Shown: positions 40,637 to 57,293 of the stretch, piece by piece
Numbering within the stretch: position 1 is the stretch's first letter
Layout: each line of letters opens with the position of its first letter
NCBI RefSeq assembly: GCF_001422445.1
Contig: NZ_LMNA01000001.1
Location: 790,735 to 854,734, forward strand
Direction of reading: 5' to 3'
Length of the DNA stretch: 64,000 bases
DNA from: Pseudorhodoferax sp. Leaf274
GTDB lineage: Bacteria > Pseudomonadota > Gammaproteobacteria > Burkholderiales > Burkholderiaceae_C
Made by a program: the position numbers and the translations under genes
Notes under the pieces: generated by a model
What the model saw: only the letters and a program-made list of their open reading frames with translations
What the model was told of the DNA's origin: nothing
Database searches by the model: none

Positions 40637-41017
40637 TCAGTAGTAGCTGATCTCGAACAGCACGCAGCCGCCGCGCGTGGTGAACGGGCCGTGCAGCGCG
40701 CCGGGCGGGCGGCAGGCGAAGGTGTAGGCGCCGAAGCGCTCGCCGCCCTGGCCCTCGGCATCGCAGCCGACCACGAAGTCGCCCTCGACGATGAAGACCT
40801 CCTCGTGGAAGTCGTGCACGACCGGGCGGTCGATGAGCGCGCCGGCTGACCAGCGGGCCAGCCGCGTGCGCGAGCCGGTGCCGCTGTCGGGGTCGAAGTT
40901 GTCGGCCAGCACGATCTCTTCGATGCGGCCGGCGCTGGAGGGCACGGGTGTCCAGGCCGCGTCGCTGCGGTCGATGGCGAAGAACTCGCGGTGGATTCTG
41001 AAGCGGGGTGTCGGCAT
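40637..41017 (-). CDS. Small cupin-domain protein
   Basis: The 126-residue protein is a single cupin barrel with [22 protein letters not shown] (about 64-85) carrying a His-x-x-His-x4-Glu-type metal site, and PPGALHGPF (about 105) supplying the second His. It is probably a metal-dependent isomerase/lyase or a ligand-binding accessory protein. It is the first gene of the DUF1445/TRAP/DUF2848/amidase operon, below a strong operator-like dyad. Confidence 0.85.
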
Positions 41018-41064
41018 GGGGGCGCAGTGTTGTCGCGCCCCCTACCCCGGTCAAACGGGAAATT

Positions 41065-41168: not shown

Positions 41169-42086
41169 CTACGGCGCCAGGATGTCCGGCCGGCTCGCCG
41201 CGACGAAGTCGTCGCTGGCCGATTGCGCCATGGCCACCAGCGCCTCGGCCATGGGCGAGGCCGGCTCCATGCGGAAGCTGGCCACCAGCGGCAGCGGCGC
41301 GGGCAGCGGGGTCACGTCCAGCAACACGAGCCGTCCCTGCTCCAGGTCCTGCTGGATCGCGCCGATGGGCAGCAGCGCGGCGCCGAAGCCCGAGCGCGCC
41401 ATGTCCACCATGGCGCCCAGCGAAGAGAAGTAGCTCACGCGCAGGTTGCTGCAGCCGGCCGTGTTCTGCGCGATGTTGCGGTAGACACTGGACTCGCGGT
41501 GGAACGAGATGATGGGGTGCTGCGCGATGTCGGCGAACGAGAGCTGCGTGCGCGTGGGAAAGCTCAGCGCGCGCGCCGGGCTGGCCACCCAGCCCATCGC
41601 GAAGTTGGCCAGCCGCCGGTTGTCGATGAAGCCCTGGGTGATCTCTTCGGACAGCACGGCGCAGTCCAGCGTGCCGCGCAGCAGTTCGTCGCGCAGGCGC
41701 GGCGTGGTGTCCGAGATCAGCTCCAGCGTGGCATTGGGATAGCGCTCGGCGAAGCGCGACAGCAGCGCGGGCAGCCAGGTGTGGGCGATGGTCTCGATCA
41801 CGCCGATGCGCAGCATGCCCGCGAAGGCCTCGGGCTGGCCCATGGCGGCCATCATGCGGGCCTGCAGCTCGATCATGCGCTCGGCATGCGGCATGAGCTC
41901 GGTGCCGTGCCGGTTCAGCATCACGCCGCGGTGCTCGCGCTCGAACAGGCGCACGCCGAACTGCTCCTCCAGCGTGGCGATGCGGCTGGAGATGCCGGCC
42001 TGCGTGGTGTGCAGCTTCTCGGCCGCGGCCTTGAAGCTGCCCAGCTTGGCCACCCAGACGAAGGCTTCGAGGAAACGCACGTTCAT
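41169..42086 (-). CDS. LysR-family transcriptional regulator
   Basis: The 305-residue protein begins [25 protein letters not shown] with a LysR helix-turn-helix ([23 protein letters not shown], residues 26-48) and an effector domain from about 90. It is divergent from atzF and in line with the cupin-TRAP operon 151 bases downstream, so it could control either or both. In Pseudomonas ADP a divergent LysR protein, AtzR, controls the cyanuric acid operon in response to nitrogen limitation and substrate. That precedent makes atzF the more attractive target. Confidence 0.92.
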
Positions 42087-42203
42087 GGCAGCGGCGTGGG
42101 GAGGGACGGGAGGGGGCGCCAAGCTTAGCGGATGCGCCGTGCTGGGCGCGGCTCTTGGCGCTGCGCGCTGCGGCAGCAACCATGGCACGCCGCTTGCATC
42201 TCA

Positions 42204-42217
42204 TCATGTACACATGA
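42204..42217. promoter_or_regulatory. TCATGTACACATGA palindrome at the atzF start
   Basis: TCATGT and ACATGA form a perfect inverted repeat with a 2-base centre, the size and shape of GntR-family operators. It overlaps the first possible ATG of atzF (42214). The core ATGTACACA recurs on the other strand at 48441-48449 after atzE, and TCATGTA recurs at 49205-49211 before the BMP gene. Confidence 0.5.
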
Positions 42218-43956
42218 TTGGATGCGTCAAAGTGGTGCAAATCGAATCTTCCCCCCCAAGCGCGGCCACCGCGGCCACCGCCCCGCTCGCCAAGCCCGAG
42301 AACGCCTGGATCTCCCGCGCGTCCTCTCCCGTGCAGACGGCCACCAGCGGCCCGCTGGCTGGTTTGGCGTTCGCGGCCAAGGACAACATCGACGCGGCCG
42401 GCTTCGCCACCACCGCGGCCTGCCCGGCCTTCGCCTACCAGCCCGCGCAACACGCCAGCGTGGTGCAGCGCCTGCTCGATGCCGGTGCGGCGCTGCTGGG
42501 CAAGACCAACCTCGACCAGTTCGCCTGCGGCCTGAACGGCACGCGCTCGCCCTACGGGCCGGTGCCCAATGCCATCGATCCGGCCTATGTGTCGGGTGGC
42601 TCCAGCTCGGGCTCGGCCTATGTGGTGGCCACGGGCGAGGCCGATTTCGCGCTGGGCACCGACACGGCCGGCTCGGGCCGCGTGCCGGCGGGGCTCAACA
42701 ACATCGTGGGCATCAAGCCCAGCAAGGGCCTCGTCAGCACGTGCGGCGTGGTGCCGGCCGCGCAGAGCGTGGACTGCGTCTCCATCTTCGCGCGCACGGT
42801 CGATGTGGCCGCCCGCGTGCTGGCCGTGGCCCAGGGCTACGACGCGCACGACCCGTACGCGCGCCGGCTGCCCCTGGCCACCACGCCGCTGCCGGCCGCG
42901 TTCCGCTTCGGCGTGCCGGCGCCGCTGGAGTTCCATGGCGACGCGCTGGCCGAACAGGCCTTCGCCCAGGCCATCGAAGGCCTGCGCGCGCTGGGCGGCA
43001 CGCCCGTGCAGATCGACTACGCGCCGCTGGCCGGCGCTGCTGCGCTGCTGTACGAGAGCGCACTGGTGGCCGAACGCTACGCGGCCGTGCGCGGCTTCGT
43101 CGATGCGCACGACGACCGGATCGTCGAGCCCGTGCGCGGAATCCTGCTGGCCGGCAAGGGCTACGGCGCGGCCGACCTCGTGGACGCCCAGGCCCGGCTG
43201 CGCGCCTTCGGCCAGCAGGCCGCCGCCATGTGGGAGGGCATCGACGTGCTGCTGGTGCCCACGGCGCCGACCCACTACACGGTGGCGCAGATGCTGGCCG
43301 ACCCGGTGGTGCTGAACCGCAACCTGGGCGCCTACACCAACTTCGTCAACCTGCTGGACTACGCCGCCATCTCCGTGCCCAGTAGCCTGCGGCCCGACGG
43401 CCTGCCCTTCGGCATCACGCTGATCGGCCCGGCCGGCAGCGACTGGCAACTGGCCGACCTGGGCCAGCGCTACCACCACGCCACGGGGTTGACGCAGGGC
43501 GCCACCGGCGCGCCGCTGCCGGCGCCCAGGCCCATCGCGGCGCTGCAACCCGCCGCGACGGTGGACGTGGTCGTCGTCGGCGCCCACCTGTCGGGCCTGC
43601 CGTTGAACGGCCAGCTGACCGAACGCGGCGCCGTGCTGCTGCGCACTGCGCACACGGTGCCCGACTACCGCCTGTTCGCGCTGCCCGGCACCGTGCCGCC
43701 CAAGCCCGGCCTGCTGCGCGTGGCGCCGGGGCAGGGCACGTGCATCGCGGTGGAGGTCTGGCGCATGCCGGCCAGCACCTACGGCAGCTTCGTCGCGCTG
43801 ATCCCGCCGCCGCTGGGCATCGGCACCCTGCTGCTGGCCGACGGCAGCGCGCTGCAGGGATTCGTGTGCGAACCCATCGGCCTGGAGGGCGCCCAGGACA
43901 TCAGCCATTTCGGCGGATGGCGCGCGTTCCTGCAATCGCGCGCCGCCGCTTCCTGA
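42214..43956 (+). CDS. atzF: Allophanate hydrolase (AtzF type)
   Basis: The 580-residue protein has an amidase-signature domain with Lys56 (FAAKDNID), cis-Ser130 ([10 protein letters not shown]) and nucleophile Ser154 ([13 protein letters not shown]). The Lys-Ser-Ser spacing of 74 and 24 equals that of Pseudomonas ADP AtzF. From about residue 450 comes the C-terminal allophanate hydrolase domain ([19 protein letters not shown]...[12 protein letters not shown]), which deals with N-carboxycarbamate. It converts allophanate to two ammonia and two CO2. The start is uncertain: ATG 42214 sits in a palindrome and lacks a ribosome site, so GTG 42232 or 42235 may be used. It is the common end-point enzyme of the cluster. 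Confidence 0.93.
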
Positions 43957-43988
43957 TCCTTCACCGACCGTCCTTGCTGGAGAACGCC

Positions 43989-44996
43989 ATGCTGACCCGA
44001 CCCGCTTCCCCGTCCCCGGCGCGCCGCCGCCTGCTCAAGACCGCGGGCGCTTCGGCCGCGCTGGCCACGCTCGGCGCGCCGCTGGCGCTGCATGCCCAGG
44101 CCGGCCCCAAGCTCCGCATCGGCTACTGGCCCATCGCGGCCGGCCTGCCGTTCTATGCCGCCGTGGAGCTGGGCTACTTCAAGGAGGCCGGCCTGAACGT
44201 GGAGCCGCTCAAGTTCGCCGGCGCCCAGCAGATCATGGAGGGCATGCTGTCCGACCGCTGCGATGGCAGCGCCAACGGCACGGGCTCGGCCAACATCGCC
44301 ATCGGCGAGATCGCCGCGCCCGGCAGCTTCAAGATCTTCTGCTCCAACCCCAGCAACGCCAAGCACGTGCTGGACGAAGTCATCGTGCCGGCGGGCAGCA
44401 CGGCCAAGACCATGGCCGACCTGAAGGGCAAGCGCGTGGGCTCGGGCCCCGGCATCCAGAACGTGACGCTGGCCAAGACCGTGCTCGAGCGCGGCGGCGC
44501 CACGGGCGCCACGGTGGTCGAGCTGCCCATCGGCCAGCACGTCGCGGCGCTCGCGGCAGGCCAGCTCGACGGCTGCTACACGCTGGAGCCCACCGGCACC
44601 ATCGGCCGCATGAACGGCACCACCCGGGTGCTGGAGGCCGGCGTGATCGCCCGGTACGTGCTGGGCGACCCGATGGCGCCGTGGTTCGGCGGCTCGGCCT
44701 CGCTCACGTCGGCCTTGATCAAGAAGAACCCGGCCGAGGCGAAGAAGTTCATCGCCGCCTACGCCAAGGGCGTGGCCTACGTGCGCAGCAAGCCCGACGA
44801 GGCACGCCAGTACATGAAGGGCTACACCGCCATCGAAGGCCCGCTCACCGGCGAGGTGCCGCTGGCCGCCTACATGATGTACGACGAATTCAAGCCGGCC
44901 GACATCGCGCACTTCCAGAAGTTCTTCGACCTGTTCAGCGAGAAGGGCATCTTCTCGTCGCGGCTCATGGTCGAGACCATGCTCTACAAGGGTTGA
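43989..44996 (+). CDS. NMT1/SsuA-type ABC transporter substrate-binding protein
   Basis: The 335-residue protein has an Arg-rich Tat-like signal ([19 protein letters not shown]) cleaved after ALHAQ. Its binding domain carries [33 protein letters not shown], the NMT1/THI5/SsuA layout for sulfonates, pyrimidines and similar small nitrogen compounds. GGAGA precedes ATG 43989. It is followed by a matching permease and ATPase and lies between atzF and atzG, so its ligand is probably a urea polymer such as biuret or a related amide. Confidence 0.9.
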
Positions 44997-45001
44997 CCGC
45001 G

Positions 45002-45829
45002 ATGTCGGCCACCCCCTCCACCGCCAAGCCCTGGACGCCGCCGGCGGCCCAGGCCACGGCCAGCGCGCCCAGGCCTGCGGCCTGGAACAAGGCGCTGCCC
45101 TTCATCGGCCCGGTCGTGCTGTTCATCCTATGGGACCTCGCGGTGCGCACCGGCATGATCAAGGCGCTGCTGCTGCCGCCGCCGCTCGACGCGCTCGGCA
45201 CGCTGGCCAAGGGCCTGTGGGGCGGGCCGCTGTTGACGGACTTCGCCGTCACCGTGTGGCGCACGTTGCAGGCCTTCCTGATCGCCGCCGTGGTCGGCAT
45301 GCCGCTGGGCGTGCTGCTGGGCAGCAACGAGAAGGCCTACCGCAGCGTGGAGTTCCTGATCGACTTCTTCCGCTCCACGCCCAGCTCGGCGCTGATCCCG
45401 CTGTTCCTCATGATCTTCGGCGTCTCCGACGTCAACAAGATCGCCATCGCGGCCTTCGGCGCCTTCCTGATCGTGGTGTTCAACAGCGCCTACGGCGTGA
45501 TCAACGCGCGCAAGCAGCGCGTGATGGCGGCCAAGGTCATGGGTGCCACGCGCTGGCAGGTGTTCAAGGACGTGCTGCTCTGGGAAAGCCTGCAGCCCAG
45601 CTTCGTCGGCCTGCGCTCGGCCGTGTCGATGGCGCTGGTCATCGTGATCGTGGCCGAGATGTTCATCGGCGCCGACTCGGGCCTGGGCAACCGCATCATC
45701 AACTCGCAGCAGGTCATGAACGTGCGCGACATGTACGCGTCCATCCTCGCGGCGGGTGCCCTGGGCTACGCGCTGAACATCCTGTTCCTGGTGCTGGAAC
45801 GCAAGATCGTGCATTGGAGCGGACGATGA
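45002..45829 (+). CDS. ABC transporter permease (SsuC/TauC type)
   Basis: The 275-residue protein has about six membrane helices and the EAA loop that contacts the ATPase (KVMGATRWQVFKDVLLWESLQPSF, about residues 179-202). It belongs to the binding-protein-dependent permease family used for taurine, sulfonate and thiamine-precursor importers. It starts five bases after the binding-protein stop and is followed by the ATPase gene after an 82-bp repeat-bearing gap. Confidence 0.93.
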   Translation: MSATPSTAKPWTPPAAQATASAPRPAAWNKALPFIGPVVLFILWDLAVRTGMIKALLLPPPLDALGTLAKGLWGGPLLTDFAVTVWRTLQAFLIAAVVGMPLGVLLGSNEKAYRSVEFLIDFFRSTPSSALIPLFLMIFGVSDVNKIAIAAFGAFLIVVFNSAYGVINARKQRVMAAKVMGATRWQVFKDVLLWESLQPSFVGLRSAVSMALVIVIVAEMFIGADSGLGNRIINSQQVMNVRDMYASILAAGALGYALNILFLVLERKIVHWSGR

Positions 45830-45905
45830 CCCCCACGCTTGTCATTACGTGTACTGCGCTGCCCCCCGAGGGGCCCCAAGCCTTCTTGGGGCGGCCCGGC
45901 GGAGG
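45826..45905. repeat. GC-rich palindromic intergenic repeat, copy 2
   Basis: This gap begins with ATGACCCCCACGC, which spans the permease stop and is identical to 54166-54178. It contains a perfect 8-bp hairpin (GCCCCAAG and CTTGGGGC, 45873-45892, 4-nt loop) and ends GGCGGCCCGGCGG. It lies directly before an ABC ATPase gene, as copy 3 does. Confidence 0.5.
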
Positions 45906-45911
45906 CTTGTC

Positions 45912-46733
45912 ATGAGCGCAGTCCTGAACGCCCCGGTGTTTGCCGACGTCCCCAAGCCGGCTTTCCAGCCCGGGCCGGCCGGCACCCACATCACGATCCG
46001 CGGCCTGACCAAGTACTTCGCGGGCTGGCCGCTGTACGAGAACTTCGACCTCGACATCCCCAAGCACAAGATCGTCTCGGTGTTCGGCCCCAACGGCTGC
46101 GGCAAGAGCACGCTGATCAACATGATCGCCGGGCTGATTCCCATCGATGCAGGCGAGATCCTGTTCGACGGCAAGAGCCTCAAGGACACGAAGATCGGCT
46201 ACGTGTTCCAGAACTACCGCGAGGCCATGTTCCCGTGGATGCGCACCATCGACAACATCGCCTACCCGCTCAAGCTGGCCGGCAAGAGCAAGGTCGAGGT
46301 GGACCGGCGCATGGCCGAGCTGGTGGCCAGCTTCGATGTGAAGTTCGACCTGAACCGCTACCCCTACGAGATGTCGGGCGGGCAGCAGCAGACGGCCTCG
46401 ATCATGCGGGCGCTGGCGCCCAACCCCGAGGTGCTGTTCCTGGACGAGCCGTTCTCGGCCCTGGACTTCGAAATGACGCTGTTCATCCGCGAGAAGCTGC
46501 AGGAGGTGTTCATGCAGACCGGCACCACCATGCTGCTGGTCTCGCACGATCTGGAAGAGGCCGTGTACCTGGCCGACGAGGTGCTGCTGCTGACCAAGCG
46601 GCCGACCAAGGTGGCAGAGATCTTGCCTTACACCGACCCGCGACCGCGCACCGTGGCCACGCTGTCGGAGCCCAGCTTCATCAGTGCCAAGAAGCTCAGT
46701 CTGGAGATTTTCCAGCGGGAAGTGCGGCGTTGA
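45912..46733 (+). CDS. ABC transporter ATP-binding protein (SsuB/TauB type)
   Basis: The 273-residue ATPase has Walker A GPNGCGKST (about 79-87), the Q-loop FQNYREAMFPW, signature MSGGQQQ (about 167), Walker B VLFLDEPF (about 188) and the H-loop His in LLVSHDLEEA. It powers the NMT1-type importer encoded upstream. The signature reads MSGGQQQ instead of LSGGQ, a mild variant. Its ATG lies behind a hairpin-bearing repeat that may affect its expression relative to the permease. Confidence 0.93.
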   Translation: MSAVLNAPVFADVPKPAFQPGPAGTHITIRGLTKYFAGWPLYENFDLDIPKHKIVSVFGPNGCGKSTLINMIAGLIPIDAGEILFDGKSLKDTKIGYVFQNYREAMFPWMRTIDNIAYPLKLAGKSKVEVDRRMAELVASFDVKFDLNRYPYEMSGGQQQTASIMRALAPNPEVLFLDEPFSALDFEMTLFIREKLQEVFMQTGTTMLLVSHDLEEAVYLADEVLLLTKRPTKVAEILPYTDPRPRTVATLSEPSFISAKKLSLEIFQREVRR

Positions 46734-46752
46734 TGTTGGCAAGGAGAGTTCG

Positions 46753-46956
46753 TTGACCCCACAGCAGATCGAAGCCTATGTGGACGCCGTGGCGCCCGCC
46801 CTGGGCCTGACCCTGGACCCCGCGCACCGCCCCGGCGTGCTGCAGTTCATGGCGCTGGCGGCCGGCATGGCCGACACCGTGGCGCGCGTGCCGCTCGCGC
46901 CGCACGACGAGACGGCGGTGCATTTCACGCCCATCGCGCCCGAGGACCTGGCATGA
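46753..46956 (+). CDS. atzG: AtzG-like small subunit of 1-carboxybiuret hydrolase
   Basis: The 67-residue protein begins at a TTG six bases after a strong AGGAG; no ATG fits. It has two amphipathic helices (TPQQIEAYVDAVAPALGLTL and PGVLQFMALAAGMADTVARVPL) and ends in an extended tail, the AtzG/DUF4089 pattern related to GatC. AtzG stabilises and completes AtzE in an E2G2 complex. Its stop overlaps the atzE start (ATGA), as expected for subunits made in fixed ratio. Confidence 0.9.
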   Translation: MTPQQIEAYVDAVAPALGLTLDPAHRPGVLQFMALAAGMADTVARVPLAPHDETAVHFTPIAPEDLA

Positions 46957-48437
46957 GCACCGCCGGGCCGCCCCAAGGTGCTCAGCACCGCAGCGCGCAG
47001 CGCGAAGCAACTCCAGTGGATGCCGCGGAATTGCTGCTGGCCGACGGCGCCACCATGGCCGCGGCCGTGCGCGCGCGCCAGGTCGGCGCTGTGGCCCTGG
47101 CCGAGGCCAGCCTCGCCCGCATCGCGGCGACCGACGGCCGCGTCAACGCCTTCACCGATCTGGTGCGCGGGCGTGCACTGGCCCGCGCTGCCGAACTCGA
47201 CGCGCGCGTGGCGGCCGGCGCCGACCTGTCGGCGCTGCCGCTGCTGGGCGTGCCCTTCGCCGTCAAGAACCTGTTCGACATCGCCGGGCTGTGCACGCTC
47301 GCCGGCTCGAAGATCGAGCGCGACAGCGCACCGGCCAGTGCCGACGGCGTGCTCGTGCAGCGGCTGGAGGCGGCCGGTGCCGTGCTGGTCGGCGCGCTCA
47401 ACATGGACGAGTACGCATACGGTTTCACGACCGAGAACAGCCACGAGGGGCCGTGCCGCAACCCGCACGATCTGGACTGCGTGGCCGGCGGTTCCTCGGG
47501 CGGCTCCGGCGCGGCCGTGGCGGCCGGCCAGGTGCCGATCACGCTGGGCTCGGACACGAATGGCTCGATCCGCGTGCCCGCGTCGCTGTGCGGCGTGTTC
47601 GGCTTGAAACCCACCTTCGGCCGGCTGCCACGCAGCGGCAGCTACCCCTTCATCTCCAGCCTGGACCACCTGGGCCCGTTCGCACGCTCGGCACGCGACC
47701 TGGCGCTGAGCTATGACGCCATGCAGGGCCCCGAGTCGGGCGCGCTGCGCGACCCCGGCTGCGCGCAGCGCGCGGCCGAGCCCGTCATGCTGCTGCTGGG
47801 CAAGGGTGTGGCGGGATTGCGCATCGGCGTGCTGGATGGCTGGTTCCGCGACAACGCATTGCCCGAGGCGCTGGCAGCCGTCGACCGCGTGGCCGAGGCG
47901 CTGGGCGCCAGCGCGCGCGTCGAACTGCCGCTGGTCGAGGAGGGCCGTGCGGCCGCGTTCCTGATCACCAACGCCGAGGCCGGCTCGCTGCACCTGGAAG
48001 ACCTGCGTCGCCGCGCGGGCGATTTCGAGCCCCATTCGCGCGACCGTTTCCTGGCTGGCGCGCTGCTGCCGGCTGCCTGGGTGGCGCGCGCCCAGCGCGT
48101 GCGCCGGCTCTACGCCGAGGCGGTGGCGCAGGTGTTCACGCAGTACGACCTGCTGCTGGCGCCGTCCACGCCCTGTGCTGCCACGCCCGTCGGCACCGAA
48201 TGGCTCACGCTGGGCGAACGCCGGCTACCGCTGCGCCCCAGCATGGGCCTGCTCACGCAACCGATCTCGTGCATCGGCCTGCCGGTGTGTGGCGTGCCGG
48301 TCTGGGACGCGCACCCGCGCATGCCCATCGGCGTGCAGCTGATCGCGGCGCCCTGGCGTGAAGACATCACGCTGCGTGCCGCTGCTGTGTTGGAAGGCCT
48401 CGGCGTGGTGCGGGCGCCTGTGGCCTCGTTGCCATGA
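46953..48437 (+). CDS. atzE: 1-carboxybiuret hydrolase catalytic subunit (AtzE type)
   Basis: The 494-residue amidase-signature enzyme has Lys105 ([12 protein letters not shown]), cis-Ser181 ([13 protein letters not shown]) and nucleophile Ser205 ([13 protein letters not shown]). An extra N-terminal tail of about 20 residues precedes the family start. With atzG directly upstream, it fits AtzE, which deaminates 1-carboxybiuret to 1,3-dicarboxyurea. AtzE descends from GatA. No cyanuric acid hydrolase gene, the usual source of carboxybiuret, is in the window; the second BiuH-like gene downstream may supply it from triuret. Confidence 0.9.
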
Positions 48438-48499
48438 CGCTGTGTACATCTTTGGGCGCATCGGTGTGGGTGCGGGACCACGCCGACGGCGTGCTCTCC

Positions 48500-48712
48500 T
48501 CCGCGAATGTCCCCCGCCCCGGGCCGCAGGCGGCCCGGGGCTCCTCCTTTATTTCGCTGCGGAGAACACACCATCGACTTGGTCCATCAACGTCGCGTCA
48601 CACGACCACGCACGACGCGACGTGTCCAAGGTCGAGGGTACTGGGTGGCCCCTGCAGCGAAATCAAGGAGGAGCCTGGGCCGCCTGCGGCCCTGGCGGGG
48701 GACATTCGCGGA
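48500..48712. repeat. 213-bp nested palindrome between atzE and atzH (MITE-like)
   Basis: The left arm (48500-48560) and right arm (48654-48712) are inverted copies differing at only a few positions. Further in, CGACTTGG pairs with CCAAGGTCG (one bulge), and ACGTCGCGTC (48590-48599) pairs perfectly with GACGCGACGT (48614-48623), leaving a 14-nt loop. Inside each arm is another hairpin (11-bp CCCCGGGCCGC stem, 2-nt loop in the left arm) followed by a T-rich CTCCTCCTTTATTT. The 349-bp gap 48438-48786 holds this and no gene. It resembles a miniature transposable element or paired inward-facing terminators. Confidence 0.7.
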
Positions 48713-48786
48713 AGGGGCCGCCCGGTGGCCTCGGCCAGGCCGCAACCGAAGCACGCACCGCCAGCAAAACACAGCCGAACAGAAAC

Positions 48787-49167
48787 ATGACCCAAGACAT
48801 CAACCTCCCCGACGTACTCGCAGAAGTCACCGCCGCATTCGCGCAATACGAAGACGCCCTCGTGCACAACAAGGTCGAGGTGCTGGACGCACTGTTCTGG
48901 AACAGCCCGCACACCTTGCGCTACGGCGCGGGCGAGAACCTGTACGGGTACGACGCCATCCAGGCCTTCCGTGCCAGCCGCCCGTCGCAGGGCCTGGCCC
49001 GCACCGTCACGCGCACCGCCATCACCACCTATGGGCGTGATTTCGCCACCACCAACATCGAGTTCCAGCGTGAAGGCAGCCCGCGCATCGGCCGCCAGAG
49101 CCAGACCTGGCTGCGCCTGCCCGAGGGCTGGCGCGTGGTGTCCGCGCATGTGAGCCTGATGGCCTGA
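48787..49167 (+). CDS. atzH: AtzH-like 1,3-dicarboxyurea deaminase
   Basis: The 126-residue protein has the SnoaL-like/DUF3225 cone fold: [43 protein letters not shown] (about 22-64) and a C-terminal [24 protein letters not shown]. This matches AtzH, shown to deaminate 1,3-dicarboxyurea to allophanate, which joins AtzE to AtzF. It is in the atzE direction but 350 bases further on, behind a long palindrome, and has no clear ribosome site, so it may have its own promoter. Confidence 0.9.
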
Positions 49168-49284
49168 CGCCCCGACCTCGCGCAGGCACGCTACTTGCAC
49201 GCTTTCATGTATCCAAGTTGAAGTTCAAGACCACCGCACTGCTTTGATGCAGCCCCAGCCCCGATCGCAAATGGAGTCAGCCCC

Positions 49285-50397
49285 ATGGACAAGATGAACC
49301 GCCGTACTTCGCTCAAGACCCTGGCCGCCGTCGGCGCCACCGGTGCACTGGGAGGCCTGCACGGCCTGGCGGCAGCGCAGGCGCCGCTCACCATCGGCGT
49401 GATCTACGTCGGCCCGCGCGACGACTACGGCTACAACCAGGCGCACGCCCAGGCAGCCGCCGAGGTCAAGAAGATGCCCGGCATCAAGGTGGTCGAGGAA
49501 GAGAACGTGCCCGAGACCGCGGCCGTGCAGAAGAGCATGACCGGCATGATTGCGCAGGACGGCGCCAAGCTGCTGTTCCCCACGTCCTTCGGCTACTACG
49601 ACCCGCACCTGCTGGCGCTGGCCGCCAAGTACCCCGACGTGCGCTTCTCGCACTGCGGTGGCATGTGGACCGAAGGCAAGCACCCCAAGAACGCGGGCAG
49701 CTTCTTCGGCTACATCGACGAGGCCCAGTTTCTCAACGGCGTGGTGGCCGGCCACCTGAGCAAGAGCGGCAAGATCGCCTTCGTCGCGGCCAAGCCCATC
49801 CCGCAGGTGCTGCGTAACATCAACGCCTTCACGCTGGGTGCGCGCTCGGTCAAGCCCGGCATCACCTGCAGCGTGATCTTCACGGGGGACTGGTCCATGG
49901 CCGTCAAGGAGGCCGAGGCCACCAACAGCCTGGCCGACCAGGGCTGCGACGTGTTCACCATGCACGTGGACGGCCCCAAGGTCATCGTCGAGACCGCCGC
50001 CAAGCGCGGCAAGATGGTCTGTGGCTACCACGCCAGCCAGGCCAAGCTGGCGCCGCAGGCCTACCTCACGGGCGCCGAGTGGAACTGGATCACGGCCTAC
50101 AAGACCATCATCGACGCGGCCCGCACCGGCAAGCCGCACCCGAACTTCCTGCGCGGCGGCATGAAGGAAGGCTTCGTGAAGATGTCGGCCTACGGCCCGG
50201 CGGTGACGGACGCGGCGAAGAAGCAGGCCGACGAGACCAAGGCCAGGATGCTGGCTGGCACCTTCGACATCTTCAAGGGTCCGCTCAAGGACAACAAGGG
50301 CAAGGAAGTGCTGGCCGCCGGCCAGGTGCAGAAGCAGACCGACCTGGCGTTGGAAGGCATGAACTACCTGGTCGAAGGGGTCCAGGGCTCGTTCTGA
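49285..50397 (+). CDS. BMP-family ABC transporter substrate-binding protein
   Basis: The 370-residue protein has a Tat/Sec-type signal (NRRTSLKTLAAVGATGALGG, cleavage near AAAQA) and the basic-membrane-protein fold: GVIYVGPRDDYGYNQAHAQA (about 38), VRFSHCGGMW (about 118), a GYIDEAQFLNGVVAGHLSKSGKIAFV segment and AEWNWITAYKTIIDAARTGK near 268. BMP proteins bind nucleosides, purines and related ring or urea compounds. GGAG sits eight bases before ATG 49285. With the two permeases and the double ATPase it forms a second importer within the biuret cluster. Confidence 0.92.
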   Translation: MDKMNRRTSLKTLAAVGATGALGGLHGLAAAQAPLTIGVIYVGPRDDYGYNQAHAQAAAEVKKMPGIKVVEEENVPETAAVQKSMTGMIAQDGAKLLFPTSFGYYDPHLLALAAKYPDVRFSHCGGMWTEGKHPKNAGSFFGYIDEAQFLNGVVAGHLSKSGKIAFVAAKPIPQVLRNINAFTLGARSVKPGITCSVIFTGDWSMAVKEAEATNSLADQGCDVFTMHVDGPKVIVETAAKRGKMVCGYHASQAKLAPQAYLTGAEWNWITAYKTIIDAARTGKPHPNFLRGGMKEGFVKMSAYGPAVTDAAKKQADETKARMLAGTFDIFKGPLKDNKGKEVLAAGQVQKQTDLALEGMNYLVEGVQGSF

Positions 50398-50407
50398 GCA
50401 CCGGGGC

Positions 50408-51514
50408 ATGGGCATGGACTCGCTAGCCAAGGACATCGGCCTGCCGGTGGCCGCCATCGCCGCGGCGCTGCTGCTGTTCGGCCTGTTCGTCGCGTTCGCC
50501 GGTGTCGACCCGGTGGAGGTCTGGACGCTGCTCTTCAAGGGCGCGTTCGGCGACTGGTTCTCGTGGCAGAACACGCTGCAGCGCGCCGCGCCGCTGATGC
50601 TCACGGCCCTGTGCGTGGCCATTCCCGCGCGCGCCGGCCTGGTCGTCATCGGCGGCGAGGGTGCCCTGGTGCTCGGCGGCCTGGGCTGCGCCGCGCTGCC
50701 CTACCTGGTGCCGTTGCCGGCCAACGCGGTCGGCACGGTGCTGGTGTGCGCGGCCGGCGCCGTCTGCGGTGCGCTGTGGATCGCGCTGGCCGGCTGGCTG
50801 CGCCAATACCGCGGCATCAACGAGACCATCAGCAGCCTGCTGCTGGCCTACGTGGCCATCGGGCTGTTCAAGCACCTCGTGGAAGGCGCGCTGCGCGATC
50901 CGGCCAGCCTGAACAAGCCATCGACCCTGCCGCTGGACGAGGGCATCCGCATCACCGGCATGCTGGGCTCGGACGTGCACTGGGGCCTGGCCATCGGCGT
51001 GGTGGCCTGCCTGGGCTTCTGGGTCTGGCTGCGCAGCACGGCCTCGGGCTTCTCGGTGCGCGTGGTGGGCGGCAACCCACGCACGGCGCAGCTGGTGGGC
51101 CTGCCGGCCTCCAGGCTGATCATCGTGGCCTGTGCGTTGGGCGGCGCCTGCGCCGGCCTGGCCGGTGCGGTGGAGGTGGCGGCCGTGCACACCAATGCCA
51201 ACGCCTCCATCATCGCGGGCTACGGCTACGCCGGCATCCTGGTGGCCTTCATGGCGCGGCACAACCCGCTGGCCATCGTGCCCGTGGCCATCCTGTTCGG
51301 CGGCTTCGGCGCGGCCGGCAGCCTGCTGCAGCGCCGCGTGGGCCTGCCCGACGCCTCGGTGCTGGTGCTGCAGGGCATCGCCTTCGTGCTGATCCTGGCC
51401 AGCGAGGCGCTGCGCCATGTGGACGGCAAGGTGCTGCTGGGCAAGCTGTTCTCGCGGCCTTACGAAGAACTGGAGCCGCAGCCCGCTCCGACGCTCAGGA
51501 GTGCCAGCGCATGA
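50408..51514 (+). CDS. ABC transporter permease (BPD_transp_2, nucleoside type, subunit 1)
   Basis: The 368-residue protein has eight to ten membrane segments and the branched-chain/ribose-type permease motif [18 protein letters not shown] (about 83-100) with [24 protein letters not shown] (about 137). It pairs with the next gene to form the channel of a BMP-type importer like YufP/NupP. It overlaps the next gene by four bases. Confidence 0.9.
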
Positions 51515-52431
51515 CCGCAGACCAATGGCTTGCCCTGTTCGCCGCCATCGTCGGCGGCGCGCTGCGGGTGGGCGTGCCGTTCCTGTTCGTGAGCCTGGGC
51601 GAATGCCTGACCGAGAAGGCCGGCCGCATCAACCTGGGGCTGGAAGGCGTGCTGGTGCTGTCGGCCATGGCGGCGTTCGGCGGCGCGTACTGGAGCGGCT
51701 CGCCCTGGGTCGGCGTGGCCATCGGCGCGTTGACGGGCGCGCTGCTGGCCACCCTGCACGGCATCCTGTGCTCGCTGCAGGGCGTCAACGACGTGGCCAC
51801 CGGCATCGCGCTGATGCTGCTGGGCATGGGCCTGGCGTTCTACCTGGGCAAGCCGCTGATCCAGCCGCAGGCGCCGCAGCTGCCGGCGATCCCGCTGGGC
51901 GGCTGGAGCGACTCGCCCGTGGTGCAGGCGGCGCTGCAGATCAATGCCCTGCTGCCCATCGGCATCGCGCTGGCCGTCGTGCTGTGGTGGGCCTTCGGCC
52001 GCACGCGTGCCGGCCTCTTGGTGCGGCTGGCCGGCGATTCGGCCAACGCCACGCGGGCGCTGGGCTACTCGGTCAACGGCATCCGCATCGCGGCCACGGC
52101 CACGGGCGGCGCCATCGCCGGCCTGGGCGGCGCCTCGCTGACGCTGTTCTACCCGGGCAGCTGGAACGAGGGCATCTCCAGCGGCCAGGGCCTGATCGCC
52201 GTGGCGCTGGTGATCTTCGCGCGGTGGAGCCCGCTGCGCTGCGTGGGCGCGGCGCTGCTGTTCGGCGGGGCCGGCGCCATCGGCCCGGCCATGCAGTCCA
52301 TCGGCGTGAGTTACGGCTACCACCTGTTCAACACCGTGCCCTATGTGCTGACGCTGCTCATCCTGGTGCTGACCTGCAAGCCCGGCGCGGTGGCGACGGG
52401 CAGCCCGGGCGAACTGTCGTCGGCGCGCTGA
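51511..52431 (+). CDS. ABC transporter permease (BPD_transp_2, nucleoside type, subunit 2)
   Basis: The 306-residue protein carries the second-subunit motif [34 protein letters not shown] (about 28-60) and [26 protein letters not shown] (about 92), typical of YufQ/NupQ. Its ATG overlaps the preceding stop. Fourteen bases after its stop comes the formamidase gene, so transport and amide hydrolysis are co-expressed. Confidence 0.92.
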
Positions 52432-52445
52432 ACGAAGGAGAAGAC

Positions 52446-53474
52446 ATGAGTGGTCTGGGCGGATTGAACAAGTCGAAGGCCGGCGTGGTGCTGGGCCTGG
52501 TGCAGCTGCAGCTGCCCGTGGTCGCGACGCCGGCCGACCTGGCGGCGCAGACGCGCCGCATCTGCGACATGGTGGGCAAGGCGCGGCGCAACATGGCGAC
52601 CATGGACCTCGTGGTGTTCCCCGAGTACGCGCTGCACGGCCTGTCGATGGACACCAACCCCGCGATCATGTGCTCGCTGGACGGGCCCGAGGTGGCGGCC
52701 TTCCAGGCGGCCTGCGTGGAGCACCGCATCTGGGGCTGCTTCTCCATCATGGAGGCCAACCCCGGTGGCAACCCCTACAACAGCGGGATCATCATCGACG
52801 ACCACGGGGCCATCCAGCTCTACTACCGCAAGCTGCACCCCTGGGTGCCGGTGGAGCCCTGGGAGCCGGGCAACCTGGGCGTGCCGGTGTGCGAGGGCCC
52901 CAACGGGGTGAAGCTGTCGCTGATCATCTGCCACGACGGCATGTTCCCCGAGATGGCGCGCGAGGCCGCGTACAAGGGGGCCGAGGTGATCCTGCGCACG
53001 GCCGGCTACACCGCCCCGATCCGCCACGCCTGGCGCATCACGAACCAGAGCAACGCCTTCCAGAACCTGGCCTACACCGCCAGCGTGTGCATGTGCGGCA
53101 GCGACGGCAGCTTCGACTCCATGGGCCAGGGCATGTTCTGCAGCTTCGACGGCACCGTCATGGTGGAGGGCGGCGGACGGCCCGACGAGATCGTCACGGC
53201 CGAGCTGCGGCCCGACCTCGTGCGCGAGGCGCGCGCCGGATGGGGTGTCGAGAACAACCCCTACCAGCTCTGGCACCGGGGCTACGTGGCGGTGCAGGGC
53301 GGCGCGCAGGACTGCCCTTACACGTTCATGCAGGACATGGTGGCGGGGCGCTACCGGCTGCCGTGGACCGACACCGTGCAAGTGACCGATGGCACATCCT
53401 GCGGCTTTGCGCCGCCCACGCGCCAGTATGGGGGCGCCGAGTCCGATCCCCTGACCCTGAGAAAGGTGGCCTAG
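52446..53474 (+). CDS. amiF: Formamidase (AmiF-like, nitrilase superfamily)
   Basis: The 342-residue enzyme has the nitrilase triad Glu60 ([10 protein letters not shown]), Lys129 (YYRKLHPW) and Cys162 ([10 protein letters not shown]). The Lys-Cys spacing of 33 and the Glu60 position agree with Helicobacter AmiF, and the C-terminal [16 protein letters not shown] and [16 protein letters not shown] segments are also of AmiF type. AmiF converts formamide to formate and ammonia. Its place right before biuH suggests the real substrate is an N-formyl urea compound (formylurea or formylbiuret) or formamide released in the same pathway; that is inference. AAGGAG precedes the start. Confidence 0.92.
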
Positions 53475-53476
53475 GC

Positions 53477-54169
53477 ATGACACCGCGCCATGTGAACGCC
53501 AACCCCTACGCCTGGCCCTACGACGGCAGCCTGCGGCCCGACAACACCGCGCTCCTCGTCATCGACATGCAGACCGACTTCTGCGGCAAGGGCGGCTATG
53601 TCGACGTGATGGGCTACGACCTGTCGCTGACCCAGGCGCCCATCGCGCCGATCAAGCGGCTGTTCGAAGTGATGCGTCCGCTGGGCTACACCATCATCCA
53701 CACGCGCGAGGGCCACCGGCCCGACCTGTCCGACCTCCCGGCCAACAAGCGCTGGCGCTCGCGCCAGATCGGGCGCGACGGCCTGGGCATCGGCGACGAC
53801 GGGCCCTGCGGCCGCATCCTGGTGCGCGGCGAGCCGGGCTGGGAGATCATCCCCGAGCTCGCGCCGCTGCGGGGCGAGGTGGTGATCGACAAGCCGGGCA
53901 AGGGCTCGTTCTACGCCACCGACCTGGAACTCGTGCTGCGCTCGCGCGGCATCGCCAACCTCATCCTGGCCGGCATCACCACCGACGTGTGCGTGCACAC
54001 CACCATGCGCGACGCCAACGACCGCGGCTTCGAATGCCTGCTGCTGTCCGACTGCACCGCCGCCACCGACCCGGCCAACCACCAGGCTGCGCTGAACATG
54101 GTCACCATGCAGGGCGGGGTGTTCGGTGCGCACACCACGTCCACGGCGCTCATCGAGGTCCTGGCATGA
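53477..54169 (+). CDS. biuH: Biuret amidohydrolase (BiuH)
   Basis: The 230-residue cysteine hydrolase of the isochorismatase-like family has Asp30 (VIDMQTDF), Lys139 ([10 protein letters not shown]) and Cys172 ([17 protein letters not shown]). The N-terminal [34 protein letters not shown] and [13 protein letters not shown] segments closely follow the Rhizobium leguminosarum BiuH I know. It hydrolyses biuret to allophanate and ammonia, which AtzF finishes. It follows the formamidase stop by two bases. Confidence 0.93.
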
Positions 54170-54242
54170 CCCCCACGCCCATCGCTTCGCTTGAAGCTGC
54201 ACCCCAGGGGGGCGCTTCGGTGCCTTCGGGCGGCCGGGCGGC
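54166..54242. repeat. GC-rich palindromic intergenic repeat, copy 3
   Basis: It begins with ATGACCCCCACGC across the biuH stop, identical to 45826-45838. It continues with GCTGCACCCCAGGGG, an imperfect hairpin and GGCGGCCGGGCGG. Like copy 2 it directly precedes an ABC ATPase gene (start 54249). Confidence 0.5.
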
Positions 54243-54248
54243 ATCGAC

Positions 54249-55829
54249 ATGATCGCCCCCGTCAAGGCGGTCCCCGCGGTCGAGGGCGCGCTGGCCCTGG
54301 AGACCTACGACCTGACCAAGCGCTTCGGCGCCTTCACGGCCATGGACCATGTGTCCATGCGCGTGGAGGCCGGCAGCGTGCACGCGCTGCTGGGCGAGAA
54401 CGGCGCGGGCAAGAGCACGCTGGTCAAGTGCGTGGCCGGGTTCCAGCAAGCCGAGGAAGGCTCCATCCTCATCGACGGGCGCGAGCGCGACATCGCCAAC
54501 CCGATCGTTGCGCGGGCGCTGGGCATCGGCATGGTCTACCAGCACTTCACCCTGGCGCCGGGCATGACGGTGGCCGAGAACCTGCTGCTGGCGGGCGGCA
54601 ACACGCCGGCCGTCATCGACTGGAAGGCCAAACGCGCAGAGCTGCAGGCCTTCCTCGCGACCACGCCGTTCCGGCTGGACCTCGATGCGCGCCCTGCAGA
54701 GCTCGCGGCCGGCGAGAAGCAGAAGCTCGAACTGCTCAAGCAGCTGTACCTCAGGCCCCGGCTGCTGATCCTGGACGAACCCACCTCGGTGCTCACGCCG
54801 CAGGAGGCCGACGAGGTGCTGGGCCACGTGCGCGCGTTCGCGCGCAGCGGCCAGTGCACCGTGCTCATCATCACGCACAAGTTCCGCGAGGTCATGGCCT
54901 ACACCGACGCCGTGACCGTGCTGCGCCGGGGCAAGGCCGTGCACCACTGCCGCGTGGCCGAGACCGACCCGGCCCGGCTGGCCGCGGCCATGATGGGCAG
55001 TGATCCAACCGGGTCCACGCCGGCCGAGGTGCTGCATGCGGAGAGCGACACCGCCGCCGCGCGCGCTCCGGTGCCGGCCGGTGCGCGCGTGGCCCTGCGG
55101 CTGCAGGGCGTGTCTGCCATGGGCGACCGCGGCACGCTGGCGGTGCACGGGGTCGACCTGGCCGTCAGGAGCGGCGAGATCCTGGGCGTGGCCGGCGTCT
55201 CGGGCAATGGCCAGCGCGAACTCGTCGAGGCCTTGGTCGGGCAGCGGCCGCGCCATGCCGGCAGCGTGCACGTGATGGGCGAGCCCTACGCCGCGCGCCG
55301 CAGCGAGAACACGCGCCTGAAGCTGCGCAGCCTGCCCGAGGAGCCGCTGCGCAACGCCTGCGTGGGCGACCTCTCGGTGGCCGAGAACATGGCGCTGCGC
55401 GACTACGATGCGCCCCCCCTGTCGTCCGGCGGCTGGCTGCGCTTCGGCCAGTGGAAGAGCCGCGCGCGCGCCTGGATCAAGGAGTACGGCGTGAAGACGC
55501 AGGGCGAGGGCGCGCCGATCAAGAGCCTGTCGGGCGGCAACGTGCAGCGCGCGGTACTGGCGCGCGAGCTGGCCGGCGACATCAACGTGCTGATCGCGGC
55601 CAACCCGGTGTTCGGCCTGGACTTTGCGGCCGTGCGCGAGATCCATGGCCGCATCGTGCAGGTGGCGGGCAAAGGCGGCGCGGTGCTGCTGGTCAGCGAA
55701 GACCTGGACGAGCTGCTGGAGCTGTCCGACCGCATCGTGGTCATGAGCGAAGGCCGCATCGTCTACGAAACCCCCGCGGCCAGCGCGGAACGCCATGTGC
55801 TGGGCGCGCACATGGGAGGAGGCCACTGA
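54249..55829 (+). CDS. ABC transporter ATP-binding protein with two ATPase domains (YufO/RbsA type)
   Basis: The 526-residue protein has two fused nucleotide-binding domains. The first has an intact Walker A ([13 protein letters not shown], about 49-61), [12 protein letters not shown] as signature and [11 protein letters not shown] as Walker B. The second has the degenerate [16 protein letters not shown] Walker A and [15 protein letters not shown] signature usual for this family. It powers the BMP-type importer whose permeases are at 50408-52431; two hydrolase genes lie between them. Its stop overlaps the next start (TGATG). Confidence 0.93.
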
Positions 55830-56524
55830 TGCAGAGCGACGTGCGCGAGATCCGCAGCCTGGCCGTGCAGGCGCAGCCCTTCGACTTCCCGTTCGACCTG
55901 GCCACCACGGCGCTGGTCATCATCGACATGCAGCGCGACTTCATCGAGCCCGGCGGCTTCGGCGCCAGCCTGGGCAACGACGTGTCGCTGCTCGAGGCCA
56001 TCGTGCCGGCCTGCCGGCGCACGCTGCAGGCCTGGCGCGCGGCGGGCGCGCTGGTGCTGCACACGCGCGAGGCGCACCGCCCCGACCTGCGCGACTGCCC
56101 GCCCGCCAAGCGCCTGCGCGGCAACCCGAGCCTGCGCATCGGCGATGCCGGGCCCATGGGCCGTGTGCTGGTGAGCGGCGAGCCCGGCGTGGAGATCATC
56201 CCGGCCCTGGCGCCGCTGCCCGGCGAGATCGTGGTCGACAAGCCGGGCAAGGGCATGTTCCACGGCACGCCGGTGCAGAACCTGCTGCAGCAGGCCGGCA
56301 TCCGCTCGTTGGTGTTCATGGGCGTGACCACCGAGGTCTGCGTGCAGACCAGCATGCGCGAGGCCAACGACCGCGGCTACGAGTGCCTGGTGCTGGAGGA
56401 CTGCACCGAGAGCTACTTCCCGCAGTTCAAGGCCGCGGCGCTGGAGATGGTCCGCGCGCAGGGCGGCATCGTCGGCTGGACGGCCACCAGCGCCCAGCTG
56501 CTGGCGGCGCTGCATTCGGAGTAA
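55829..56524 (+). CDS. Isochorismatase-like cysteine hydrolase, candidate triuret hydrolase (TrtA)
   Basis: The 231-residue protein is a diverged paralogue of BiuH with Asp33 (IIDMQRDF), Lys138 ([10 protein letters not shown]) and Cys171 ([17 protein letters not shown]); the Lys-Cys spacing of 33 is the same in both. It differs around the active site ([12 protein letters not shown] for [31 protein letters not shown]). TrtA, a BiuH relative known to cluster with biuH, turns triuret into carboxybiuret. With atzEG present to use carboxybiuret, TrtA is the best guess. A second biuret, ureidoacrylate or formylurea hydrolase remains possible. Confidence 0.85.
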
Positions 56525-56564
56525 GGTAGCGCCTGTCCCCACCACTGCAGGCTCCACGCGCCCC

Positions 56565-57293
56565 GTGCCCCCTACCGTTTCCAAGAAGCTCCCCGCCGCG
56601 CCGGCCGCGGCATTCCGCTCGCGCGCGGACGAGGTCTACGCGCAGCTCAAGCGCGACGTGGCCGACTTCCAGCTCGTGCCGGGCGACCGGTTCACCGAGA
56701 ACGAGATCAGCGAGCGCCTGGGGGTCTCGCGCACGCCGGTGCGCCAGGCGCTGTTCCGGCTGCAGCAGGAGGGCTTCGTCGAGGTGCTGTTCCGCTCGGG
56801 CTGGCGTGTGCTGCCCTTCGACTTCGACCAGTTCGAGCAGCTCTACGACCTGCGCATGGTGCTGGAGACCACGGCCATCCACCGTTTGTGCGAGGACGCG
56901 GTGCGCGTGGACCACGGGCTGCTCGACGCGCTGGCCGCGATCTGGCTGGTGCCGCCGGCCGAGCGCAGCAGCGGGATGGCCGAGGTCTCGCAGTGGGATG
57001 AGGCCTTCCACTGCCAGATCGTGGCGGCCGCCGGCAACGCCGAGATGGCGCGCGTGCACCGCGAGGTGACCGAACGCATCCGCATCATCCGCCGGCTCGA
57101 CTTCACGCAGCAGCTGCGCATCGACGCCACCTACGACGAGCACGCCAAGATCTTGAAGGCCGTGCAGCGCAAGCGCGGCGACCAGGCCGCGATGCTGATG
57201 CGCGCCCACATCGAGACCAGCCAGGCCGAGGTGCGCAAGATCACGCTGCACCAGGTGCACCTGGCGCGGCAGGGCGGCTACGGGCCGCGCTGA
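56565..57293 (+). CDS. GntR-family regulator (FCD subfamily)
   Basis: From GTG 56565 the 242-residue protein has a GntR winged helix (ADEVYAQLKRDVADFQLVPGDRFTENEISERLGVSRTPVRQALFRLQQEGFV, about 21-73) and an all-helical FCD effector domain with the metal-binding pattern WDEAFHCQIVAAAGN (about 144) and DEHAKILKA (about 190). It closes the biuret cluster in the same direction, 40 bases after the second cysteine hydrolase. It is a likely local repressor responding to a urea-polymer intermediate; the palindrome at 42204 is a candidate site. Confidence 0.92.
   Translation: MPPTVSKKLPAAPAAAFRSRADEVYAQLKRDVADFQLVPGDRFTENEISERLGVSRTPVRQALFRLQQEGFVEVLFRSGWRVLPFDFDQFEQLYDLRMVLETTAIHRLCEDAVRVDHGLLDALAAIWLVPPAERSSGMAEVSQWDEAFHCQIVAAAGNAEMARVHREVTERIRIIRRLDFTQQLRIDATYDEHAKILKAVQRKRGDQAAMLMRAHIETSQAEVRKITLHQVHLARQGGYGPR

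Follow-up and report, generated by a model that had tools for sequence, protein, structure and literature searches.

Introduction

Triuret and biuret are impurities of urea fertiliser. For Herbaspirillum, a triuret pathway of TrtA, BiuH and AtzF, optionally with TrtB as reported carboxybiuret decarboxylase, has been published, and AtzEG is treated in the same paper as a known enzyme for carboxybiuret (PMC7948467). Nitrifier metagenome-assembled genomes with atzF-biuH-trtA-trtB-bmpA have been published as well (PMC12625717), the operons of pADP-1 are described as being under sigma-54/nitrogen-limitation control (PMC6834077), and a study of 2018 did not settle what atzG-atzE-atzH clusters do in nature (PMC6219798); these papers, like PMC5806882 below, are cited from excerpts, to which all statements about them extend. 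Here, we analysed a stretch of 64,000 nt from Pseudorhodoferax sp. Leaf274 (contig NZ_LMNA01000001.1, positions 790,735 to 854,734), in the following called the window, which contains a cluster of 16 genes comprising atzG-atzE-atzH together with genes for a biuret hydrolase (biuH) and a probable triuret hydrolase (trtA). It is probably a scavenging cluster for small ureides under control of nitrogen starvation (RpoN/sigma-54), with triuret and biuret degraded along the route proposed below. Gene identities, diagnostic residues, the search for the cyanuric acid hydrolase AtzD (none found), the linkage of AtzE to TrtA in relatives and the conservation of sigma-54 type sites were computed directly.

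For every reaction, and for the flow of the TrtA product into AtzEG, the route draws on the published biochemistry of the families. Triuret and/or biuret would be taken up by the BMP-type importer; TrtA would convert triuret to 1-carboxybiuret and NH3, AtzEG would deaminate carboxybiuret to 1,3-dicarboxyurea, AtzH would decarboxylate the latter to allophanate, and AtzF would turn allophanate into NH3 and CO2, with all four triuret nitrogens freed. Biuret, either imported or formed spontaneously from carboxybiuret, would be deaminated to allophanate by BiuH, while the LysR and GntR regulators may sense substrates or intermediates. As carboxybiuret turns into biuret spontaneously with a half-life of ~20 min (PMC7948467), BiuH would be both an entry and a rescue route. 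An earlier note on this DNA had BiuH feeding biuret in, to which the rescue function is added here.

Results and discussion

The assignment on which the route depends concerns the second BiuH-like cysteine hydrolase of the cluster (55829-56524). This protein reaches 260 bits on the BiuH model, under the cut-off of 370, finds its best PDB match in TrtA (6xix, 298 bits) compared to 224 bits for the best BiuH structure, and is 63% identical to Herbaspirillum TrtA, but 49% to BiuH. The isochorismatase fold with an Asp24-Lys129-Cys162 triad is present. Since the BiuH and TrtA profiles merge in locus scans, the two were told apart by other means, including a residue comparison at 14 sites that the publication on TrtA specifies (PMC7948467). 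The window protein equals Herbaspirillum TrtA at 13 of the 14, including F35, N41, E160, Y187, Q202 and I205, and hence at all six specificity residues; five of these are TrtA consensus residues differing from BiuH, while Q202 is common to BiuH but placed differently. The same six are kept in 92 of 92 TrtA-type homologues of the fetched loci. The neighbouring protein, 73% identical overall to R. leguminosarum BiuH, matches the latter at 14 of 14 sites and carries the BiuH-type residues Y, Y, S, D, T and V. The comparison agrees with the earlier note, which had taken the second hydrolase for TrtA and its neighbour for BiuH, and the prediction that the former is a TrtA with one odd residue is well supported. 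As such, it would be expected to act on triuret and to leave biuret almost untouched.

A TrtA profile scan yielded 579 confirmed loci, the best 80 of which were surveyed, a selection biased towards close relatives. Among the named relatives in this selection, Variovorax boronicumulans DE0202 (97%) and Pseudorhodoferax soli (95%) come closest by TrtA. The core BMP importer-(formamidase)-BiuH-ATPase-TrtA recurs in Comamonadaceae, other Burkholderiales and Alphaproteobacteria, with the formamidase present in 30 of the 80 loci. AtzE occurs together with AtzH in 25 loci (two of them without a called AtzG) and without AtzH in two, AtzH without AtzE in 18, and a cupin of ~115 amino acids, never together with AtzE or AtzH in the 80 counted loci, in 14. 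None of the three was found in 21 loci, of which 12 are shorter than 15 kb and L065 shows a cut AtzH. Because AtzE and AtzH are also found together in 25 of 80 TrtA-centred loci from elsewhere, the co-location of the cluster genes is not due to chance. Their arrangement beside TrtA varies, with AtzE/AtzH upstream (window), downstream (L120, L121) or convergent (L117).

Independently of TrtA, we surveyed 399 genomes sampled evenly across the window's family. AtzE was accepted at E ≤1e-100 and at least 55% identity to pADP-1 AtzE (one second copy of 47% was dropped), TrtA at an identity of at least 59%. By these thresholds, 91 genomes have AtzE, 102 have TrtA and 76 have both; AtzE lies within 20 kb of TrtA in 68 of the 91 (median 7.7 kb), on another contig of the same genome in eight, and in a genome without TrtA in 15. 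As 76 of the 91 AtzE genomes carry TrtA compared to 12 with AtzD (one of these a weak fragment), AtzE is in this family mainly a partner of the triuret hydrolase. This suggests a probable everyday job for the trio AtzG-AtzE-AtzH and flags 102 of the 399 genomes as probably able to use triuret and biuret from fertiliser.

TrtA-type genes were also noticed in other settings. An IncR plasmid of Enterobacter hormaechei, small and mobilizable, carries an atzF-BMP importer-formamidase-biuH-trtA-gntR cluster (L234), and Klebsiella aerogenes has a TrtA match at 61%. On an IncF plasmid of E. coli (L233), a TrtA-like hydrolase (58%) adjoins DUF2877-fdrA-DUF1116-carbamate kinase-cytosine permease-LysR, a set of oxalurate/allantoin type; TrtA finds matches in 78 Escherichia plasmid records at E 1e-30, with the gene context taken from one. 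In L115 (G023:C34), one stretch contains two TrtA-type paralogues (66% and 58%) along with BiuH and a further isochorismatase-like protein, which is 49% identical to BiuH.

The range begins at 42214 with the ATG of atzF and ends at 57293 with the stop codon of gntR, all named genes in it lie on the + strand, and lysR is divergent at the left. NCBIfam, Pfam and PDB profile matches showed that the gene list of the earlier note for this range was right in content, order, strand and limits. The features are:

41169..42086, - strand: lysR, LysR-type regulator, divergent; the open frame reaches 42188, and the ATG at 42086, which fits the family start, is the probable one
42183..42197, + strand: sigma-54 type site TGGCACG-N4-TTGC, exact; begins 31 nt before the annotated atzF ATG
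42214..43956, + strand: atzF, allophanate hydrolase; NCBIfam 747 bits, cut-off 511
43989..44996, + strand: NMT1/SsuA-type ABC substrate-binding protein (NCBIfam/Pfam)
45002..45829, + strand: ABC permease of the NMT1-type importer (NCBIfam/Pfam)
45912..46733, + strand: ABC ATPase of the NMT1-type importer (Pfam scan only)
46753..46956, + strand: atzG, partner subunit of AtzE, TTG start; Pfam AtzG-like, 48.6 bits
46953..48437, + strand: atzE, amidase of the 1-carboxybiuret hydrolase type; NCBIfam 675 bits, cut-off 461
48438..48786, + strand: palindromic dispersed repeat (MITE-like) in the non-coding atzE-atzH spacer, 349 bp
48787..49167, + strand: atzH; Pfam AtzH-like, 211.7 bits
49184..49198, + strand: sigma-54 type site AGGCACG-N4-TTGC, 10/11, in the gap between atzH and the next gene; begins 101 nt before the latter
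49285..50397, + strand: BMP/PnrA-type ABC substrate-binding protein, AtzT-like; ligand residues changed (E165Q, N218H, N220D)
50414..51514, + strand: ABC permease A of the BMP importer (NCBIfam/Pfam)
51511..52431, + strand: ABC permease B of the BMP importer
52446..53474, + strand: amiF-like formamidase; 558 bits, cut-off 406
53477..54169, + strand: biuH, biuret hydrolase; 415 bits, cut-off 370
54249..55829, + strand: double ABC ATPase of the BMP importer
55829..56524, + strand: trtA, probable triuret hydrolase
56565..57293, + strand: gntR, GntR/FCD-type regulator

The curated NCBIfam cut-offs are passed by AtzF, AtzE, AtzH (labelled HpxZ), the formamidase and BiuH. AtzF has both the amidase domain and the allophanate hydrolase C-terminal domain. 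AtzE matches the PDB AtzE 6c62 with 554 bits, is 62% identical to pADP-1 AtzE, shows the amidase motifs Lys, Gly-Gly-Ser-Ser and Ser at residues 104, 179 and 199, and is adjoined by the small AtzG, for which AtzG 6c62_C is the sole PDB match and the NCBIfam scan gave no match. The window's genome (6.7 Mb, 30 contigs) contains one AtzF and one BiuH over the cut-off, one AtzH and one urease alpha.

The window AtzH carries nine of nine published pocket residues, including Tyr22, Arg46 and Arg66 (residues from PMC6219798). In a discovery set, all 30 AtzH proteins from loci with AtzE, that of the window among them, have Arg66, and 21 of the 22 from loci without AtzE lack it. The rule that Arg66 is present if, and only if, AtzE is adjacent was written down beforehand and then tried on 49 new AtzH loci, where it failed as a general rule: Arg66 was found in 28 of 29 new loci with AtzE, but it was also kept in 17 of 20 without a scored AtzE (in two of these 17, L175 and L180, the contig ends inside an AtzE). 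Among the new loci bearing TrtA/BiuH, however, Arg66 was present in 11 of 11 with AtzE and lacking in 3 of 3 without, and in the pooled TrtA-linked loci all 41 AtzH with AtzE have Arg66 while 24 of 25 without AtzE do not; the sole exception, L096, is cut by the contig end beside AtzH. The rule thus holds only inside TrtA/BiuH clusters. L210, the one exception among the new loci with AtzE, has the only AtzH with AtzE that nevertheless carries Cys66, and its fetched stretch contains no TrtA. In a tree built without column 66, loss of Arg66 requires four changes, of which at least three are forced by supported branches; this test counted L175 and L180 as having AtzE, and since only three independent pairs on supported branches were available for a phylogenetic sign test, no significance is claimed.

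The pattern is a hint that two types of decarboxylase may exist, and the window AtzH would, by its Arg66, be of the AtzEG (dicarboxyurea) type, in agreement with what had been assumed earlier. The AtzH variants named as impaired in the excerpts of PMC6219798 are Y22A, Y22F, R46A, R46K and R63K; R66 variants are missing from this list, which is an argument against an essential role of Arg66. The residue may rather determine the substrate preference, a testable prediction on a single residue. In locus L114, the TrtA of which is 92% identical to the crystallised Herbaspirillum enzyme, the gene flanked by TrtA and GntR is of the AtzH family and codes for Cys66, and the 20 kb fetched contain no AtzE. 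TrtB would be expected at this place, and from the gene position in a Herbaspirillum-like genome we infer that TrtB is an AtzH-family protein of the L114 type. In other lineages of the TrtA loci, the slot holds AtzH alone or a cupin. The latter is a ChrR-type cupin of ~115 amino acids by trtA in alphaproteobacteria (L032, 12659-13012; L033, 12671-13018), where betaproteobacteria have AtzH-family genes; it is a candidate for a non-orthologous carboxybiuret decarboxylase. We draw no link to a cupin-like gene of the window (40637-41041): both belong to Pfam Cupin_7, yet do not align with each other.

The relatives would thereby hold three exchangeable solutions where the same unstable intermediate must be handled. 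As a wider hypothesis, which is possible but which we hold with more doubt than trust, AtzG-AtzE-AtzH of the atrazine/cyanuric acid operon may derive from Comamonadaceae-like natural triuret-type clusters, and AtzH proteins may be N-carboxy-ureide decarboxylases with a switch at residue 66, which would act on 1,3-dicarboxyurea from AtzEG if Arg66 is present and on carboxybiuret directly if it is missing (TrtB type), with the cupin as a third, unrelated solution in alphaproteobacteria. Natural triuret-type clusters would then be a possible source of the lower atrazine pathway. In the AtzE tree, the AtzE proteins of pADP-1 and of a P. putida plasmid and one chromosomal, AtzD-linked AtzE fall into one 27-row clade (SH-aLRT 100), which also holds 16 TrtA-linked rows (L240 by visible BMP genes only) and eight TrtA-less ones (two from partial loci); forks inside it are weak, and the window AtzE stands in another clade. 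An earlier tree of AtzE and AtzH, built before the TrtA-less rows were added, had placed pADP-1 in a clade of 16 rows, 14 of which are TrtA-linked.

Several observations weigh against the triuret/biuret route and are discussed here together with the alternatives to which they point. The one odd site of the predicted TrtA is A134M, a Met where TrtA has Ala134. Among the 92 TrtA-type relatives of the fetched loci, this position is Ala in 80, Met in eight, Ser in three and Gly in one, so that the substitution is unusual. BiuH has Ser at 134, and A134S is the one non-deleterious TrtA mutation (PMC7948467). In addition, 26 of the 102 TrtA genomes of the family survey lack AtzE, which means that AtzEG is unnecessary for triuret use.

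A further point is that AtzD sits inside the same cluster in relatives, e.g. Rhizobium johnstonii 3841. It lies within the fetched stretch in four of 91 other loci (L052, L071, L098, L116) and in or near the cluster also in G534 and G337. The cluster could accordingly be read as an s-triazine (cyanuric acid) operon after loss of AtzD, but we regard this as highly improbable: AtzD accompanies AtzE in so few genomes of the family, its placement is scattered, whereas BiuH-TrtA recurs in the survey of TrtA loci, and the window's whole genome gave no match to AtzD/barbiturase (PF09663). Because the 14 built-in controls of this search contain no AtzD positive, a separate positive control was run with 300 genomes of the same order; it worked, with PF09663 matches in 22 of them and the window's genome again without one. 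The search of the whole genome for AtzD/barbiturase, named in the earlier note as a check, hence came out as expected there. Its wording 'urea polymers rather than s-triazines' holds for this genome, but not for the cluster type.

NCBIfam labels the window AtzH 'oxalurate catabolism protein HpxZ' (215 bits, cut-off 135), Klebsiella has hpxX-AtzE-hpxZ in the same order, and Klebsiella AtzE (HpxY) and AtzH, on a long branch, group with four other, TrtA-linked rows (support 97), so that trees alone do not separate oxalurate-type from carboxybiuret-type AtzE. On these grounds AtzGEH might be an oxalurate/purine (HpxXYZ) unit unrelated to triuret. The idea appears rather improbable to us, since the same HpxZ label falls on the AtzH of pADP-1, which comes from a cyanuric acid operon, the pADP-1 AtzE stands in its clade with TrtA-linked and TrtA-less Comamonadaceae-type rows and away from Klebsiella, no HpxW-type gamma-glutamyltransferase was found among the 16 genes, and AtzE is linked to TrtA in the family.

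The last point concerns AtzE modules without TrtA. From the 15 family genomes with AtzE and without TrtA, 11 loci were fetched, and six of them contain AtzF-NMT1 importer-AtzE(-AtzH)-GntR without BMP importer, BiuH and TrtA (L238, L239, L241, L242, L245 and, without a called AtzH, L236). The six genomes gave no AtzD and no TrtA- or BiuH-type match at E 1e-60, a limit that could miss a weak BiuH, as one BiuH scored 2.3e-59. Among the other TrtA-less loci, L244 lacks GntR, L235 is AtzD-AtzE-AtzH, L237 and L243 are partial, and L240 shows BMP genes at the contig end; the flanks of the TrtA-less modules had no shared extra enzyme among seven proteins scanned. The left half of the window's cluster can thus exist alone, and AtzEG must there be fed by something besides TrtA or AtzD. 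The window looks like such a stand-alone module with a BMP-BiuH-TrtA block between atzH and gntR, and the NMT1-AtzGEH half probably also works as a module of its own on a further substrate.

Taken to its end, this argumentation gives two independent modules that share AtzF: BMP-BiuH-TrtA, inserted between atzH and gntR, would use triuret and biuret via spontaneously formed biuret, and NMT1-AtzGEH-AtzF would serve another imported ureide. The position of GntR, after atzH in the stand-alone loci and after trtA in the window, is in line with it, as is a sigma-54 type site at the head of each half. The strong co-occurrence of AtzE and TrtA, the tracking of AtzE by Arg66 of AtzH inside TrtA clusters, and loci L120 and L121, in which AtzE/AtzH directly follow TrtA and the fetched 20 kb contain no NMT1 importer, argue in the opposite direction, and we consider the arrangement unlikely, although it deserves attention. 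The triuret/biuret pathway, as set out in the earlier note, is partly supported in sum: the diagnostic residues, the AtzD search and the linkage in 76 of 91 genomes speak for it, whereas its simple linear route TrtA -> AtzEG -> AtzH is too narrow, as AtzEG need not be fed by TrtA only.

The substrate-binding protein of the BMP importer is 40% identical to the guanine-binding protein AtzT. Among the cluster proteins matching with more than 600 bits (five under 600 bits were left out), all 74 retain the guanine contacts Y45, S97 and W194, and 71 retain F98, but in every one of the 74, window included, E165, N218 and N220 are replaced by Q, H and D. In the related chain 3s99, H218 and D220 are found too, but E165 is retained, which leaves Q165 as the distinctive change. 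The ligand is likely to be other than guanine; from the context, our guess is triuret or biuret.

The sigma-54 (-24/-12) consensus is TGGCACG-N4-TTGC. Its exact form occurs once in the 64 kb, upstream of atzF, compared to a chance mean of 0.10, with one occurrence in 8 of 100 shuffles. Between this site and the ATG at 42214 there is hardly enough space for a ribosome-binding site, so atzF may start at GTG 42232 or 42235. The site recurs at the same place only in L036 and L038, and any such site was found upstream of atzF in three of 39 loci, in many of which atzF is not the first gene. One-mismatch matches number three in the window and are not above chance (mean 3.8); the second site is therefore supported by position and conservation: a site of at least 9/11 lies within 250 nt upstream of the BMP substrate-binding protein gene in 39 of 62 related loci compared to 2 of 62 in the reverse-strand control, and one of at least 10/11 in 20 compared to none. 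The other 14 cluster genes have at most five upstream sites each (TrtA 5/81; highest share AtzG, 2/12). Such sites at the head of each half indicate a putative control by nitrogen limitation. Scans for sigma-70 promoters and terminators gave nothing above shuffles.

For the repeat in the atzE-atzH spacer, ~270-300 bp in size, scoring of 40 out of 136 candidates gave matches at no fewer than 11 distinct places, and it also occurs in L034 and L035; the atzE-atzH gap is -1 to 39 bp in nine of ten other relatives, and L073 has a gap of 307 bp. No spacer-like element turned up in a pattern search. Shorter non-coding inserts lie at 45830-45911 and 54170-54248, the second of which is also present in L035 and, weaker, in L095.

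Comparison with known systems

A search of the open-access literature found no paper with both 'triuret' and 'Variovorax', and in the excerpts of this literature (subscription papers including the TrtB paper lay outside its scope) TrtA is not joined with AtzEGH clusters. Very probably, the arrangement of the window is that of the Variovorax/Rhodoferax AtzF-ABC-atzGEH-ABC-amidase clusters mentioned in 2018, although the excerpts name no BiuH or TrtA among the downstream amidases and give no substrate (PMC6219798). With atzDGEHF/atzRSTUVW of Pseudomonas sp. ADP, the window shares AtzG, AtzE, AtzH, AtzF, a LysR regulator, a BMP-type importer and sigma-54 control (PMC6219798, PMC6834077); it differs in that no AtzD was found, TrtA and BiuH are present, and guanine-contact residues of the substrate-binding protein are changed. 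The cyanuric acid/biuret cluster on pRL10 of R. johnstonii 3841 (PMC5806882), the strain from which the crystallised BiuH came, has the substrate-binding protein, both permeases, formamidase, BiuH, ATPase and TrtA in the order of the window, but contains AtzD between BiuH and the ATPase and a cupin after TrtA instead of AtzGEH, and no AtzF is annotated within 9 kb. The Herbaspirillum pathway has TrtA, BiuH and AtzF in common with the window, and the Herbaspirillum-like L114 shows the same core with both importers and, unlike the window, a stand-alone AtzH-family gene without AtzE/AtzG. Where TrtB decarboxylates carboxybiuret in Herbaspirillum, the window has AtzG-AtzE and an AtzH of the Arg66 type.

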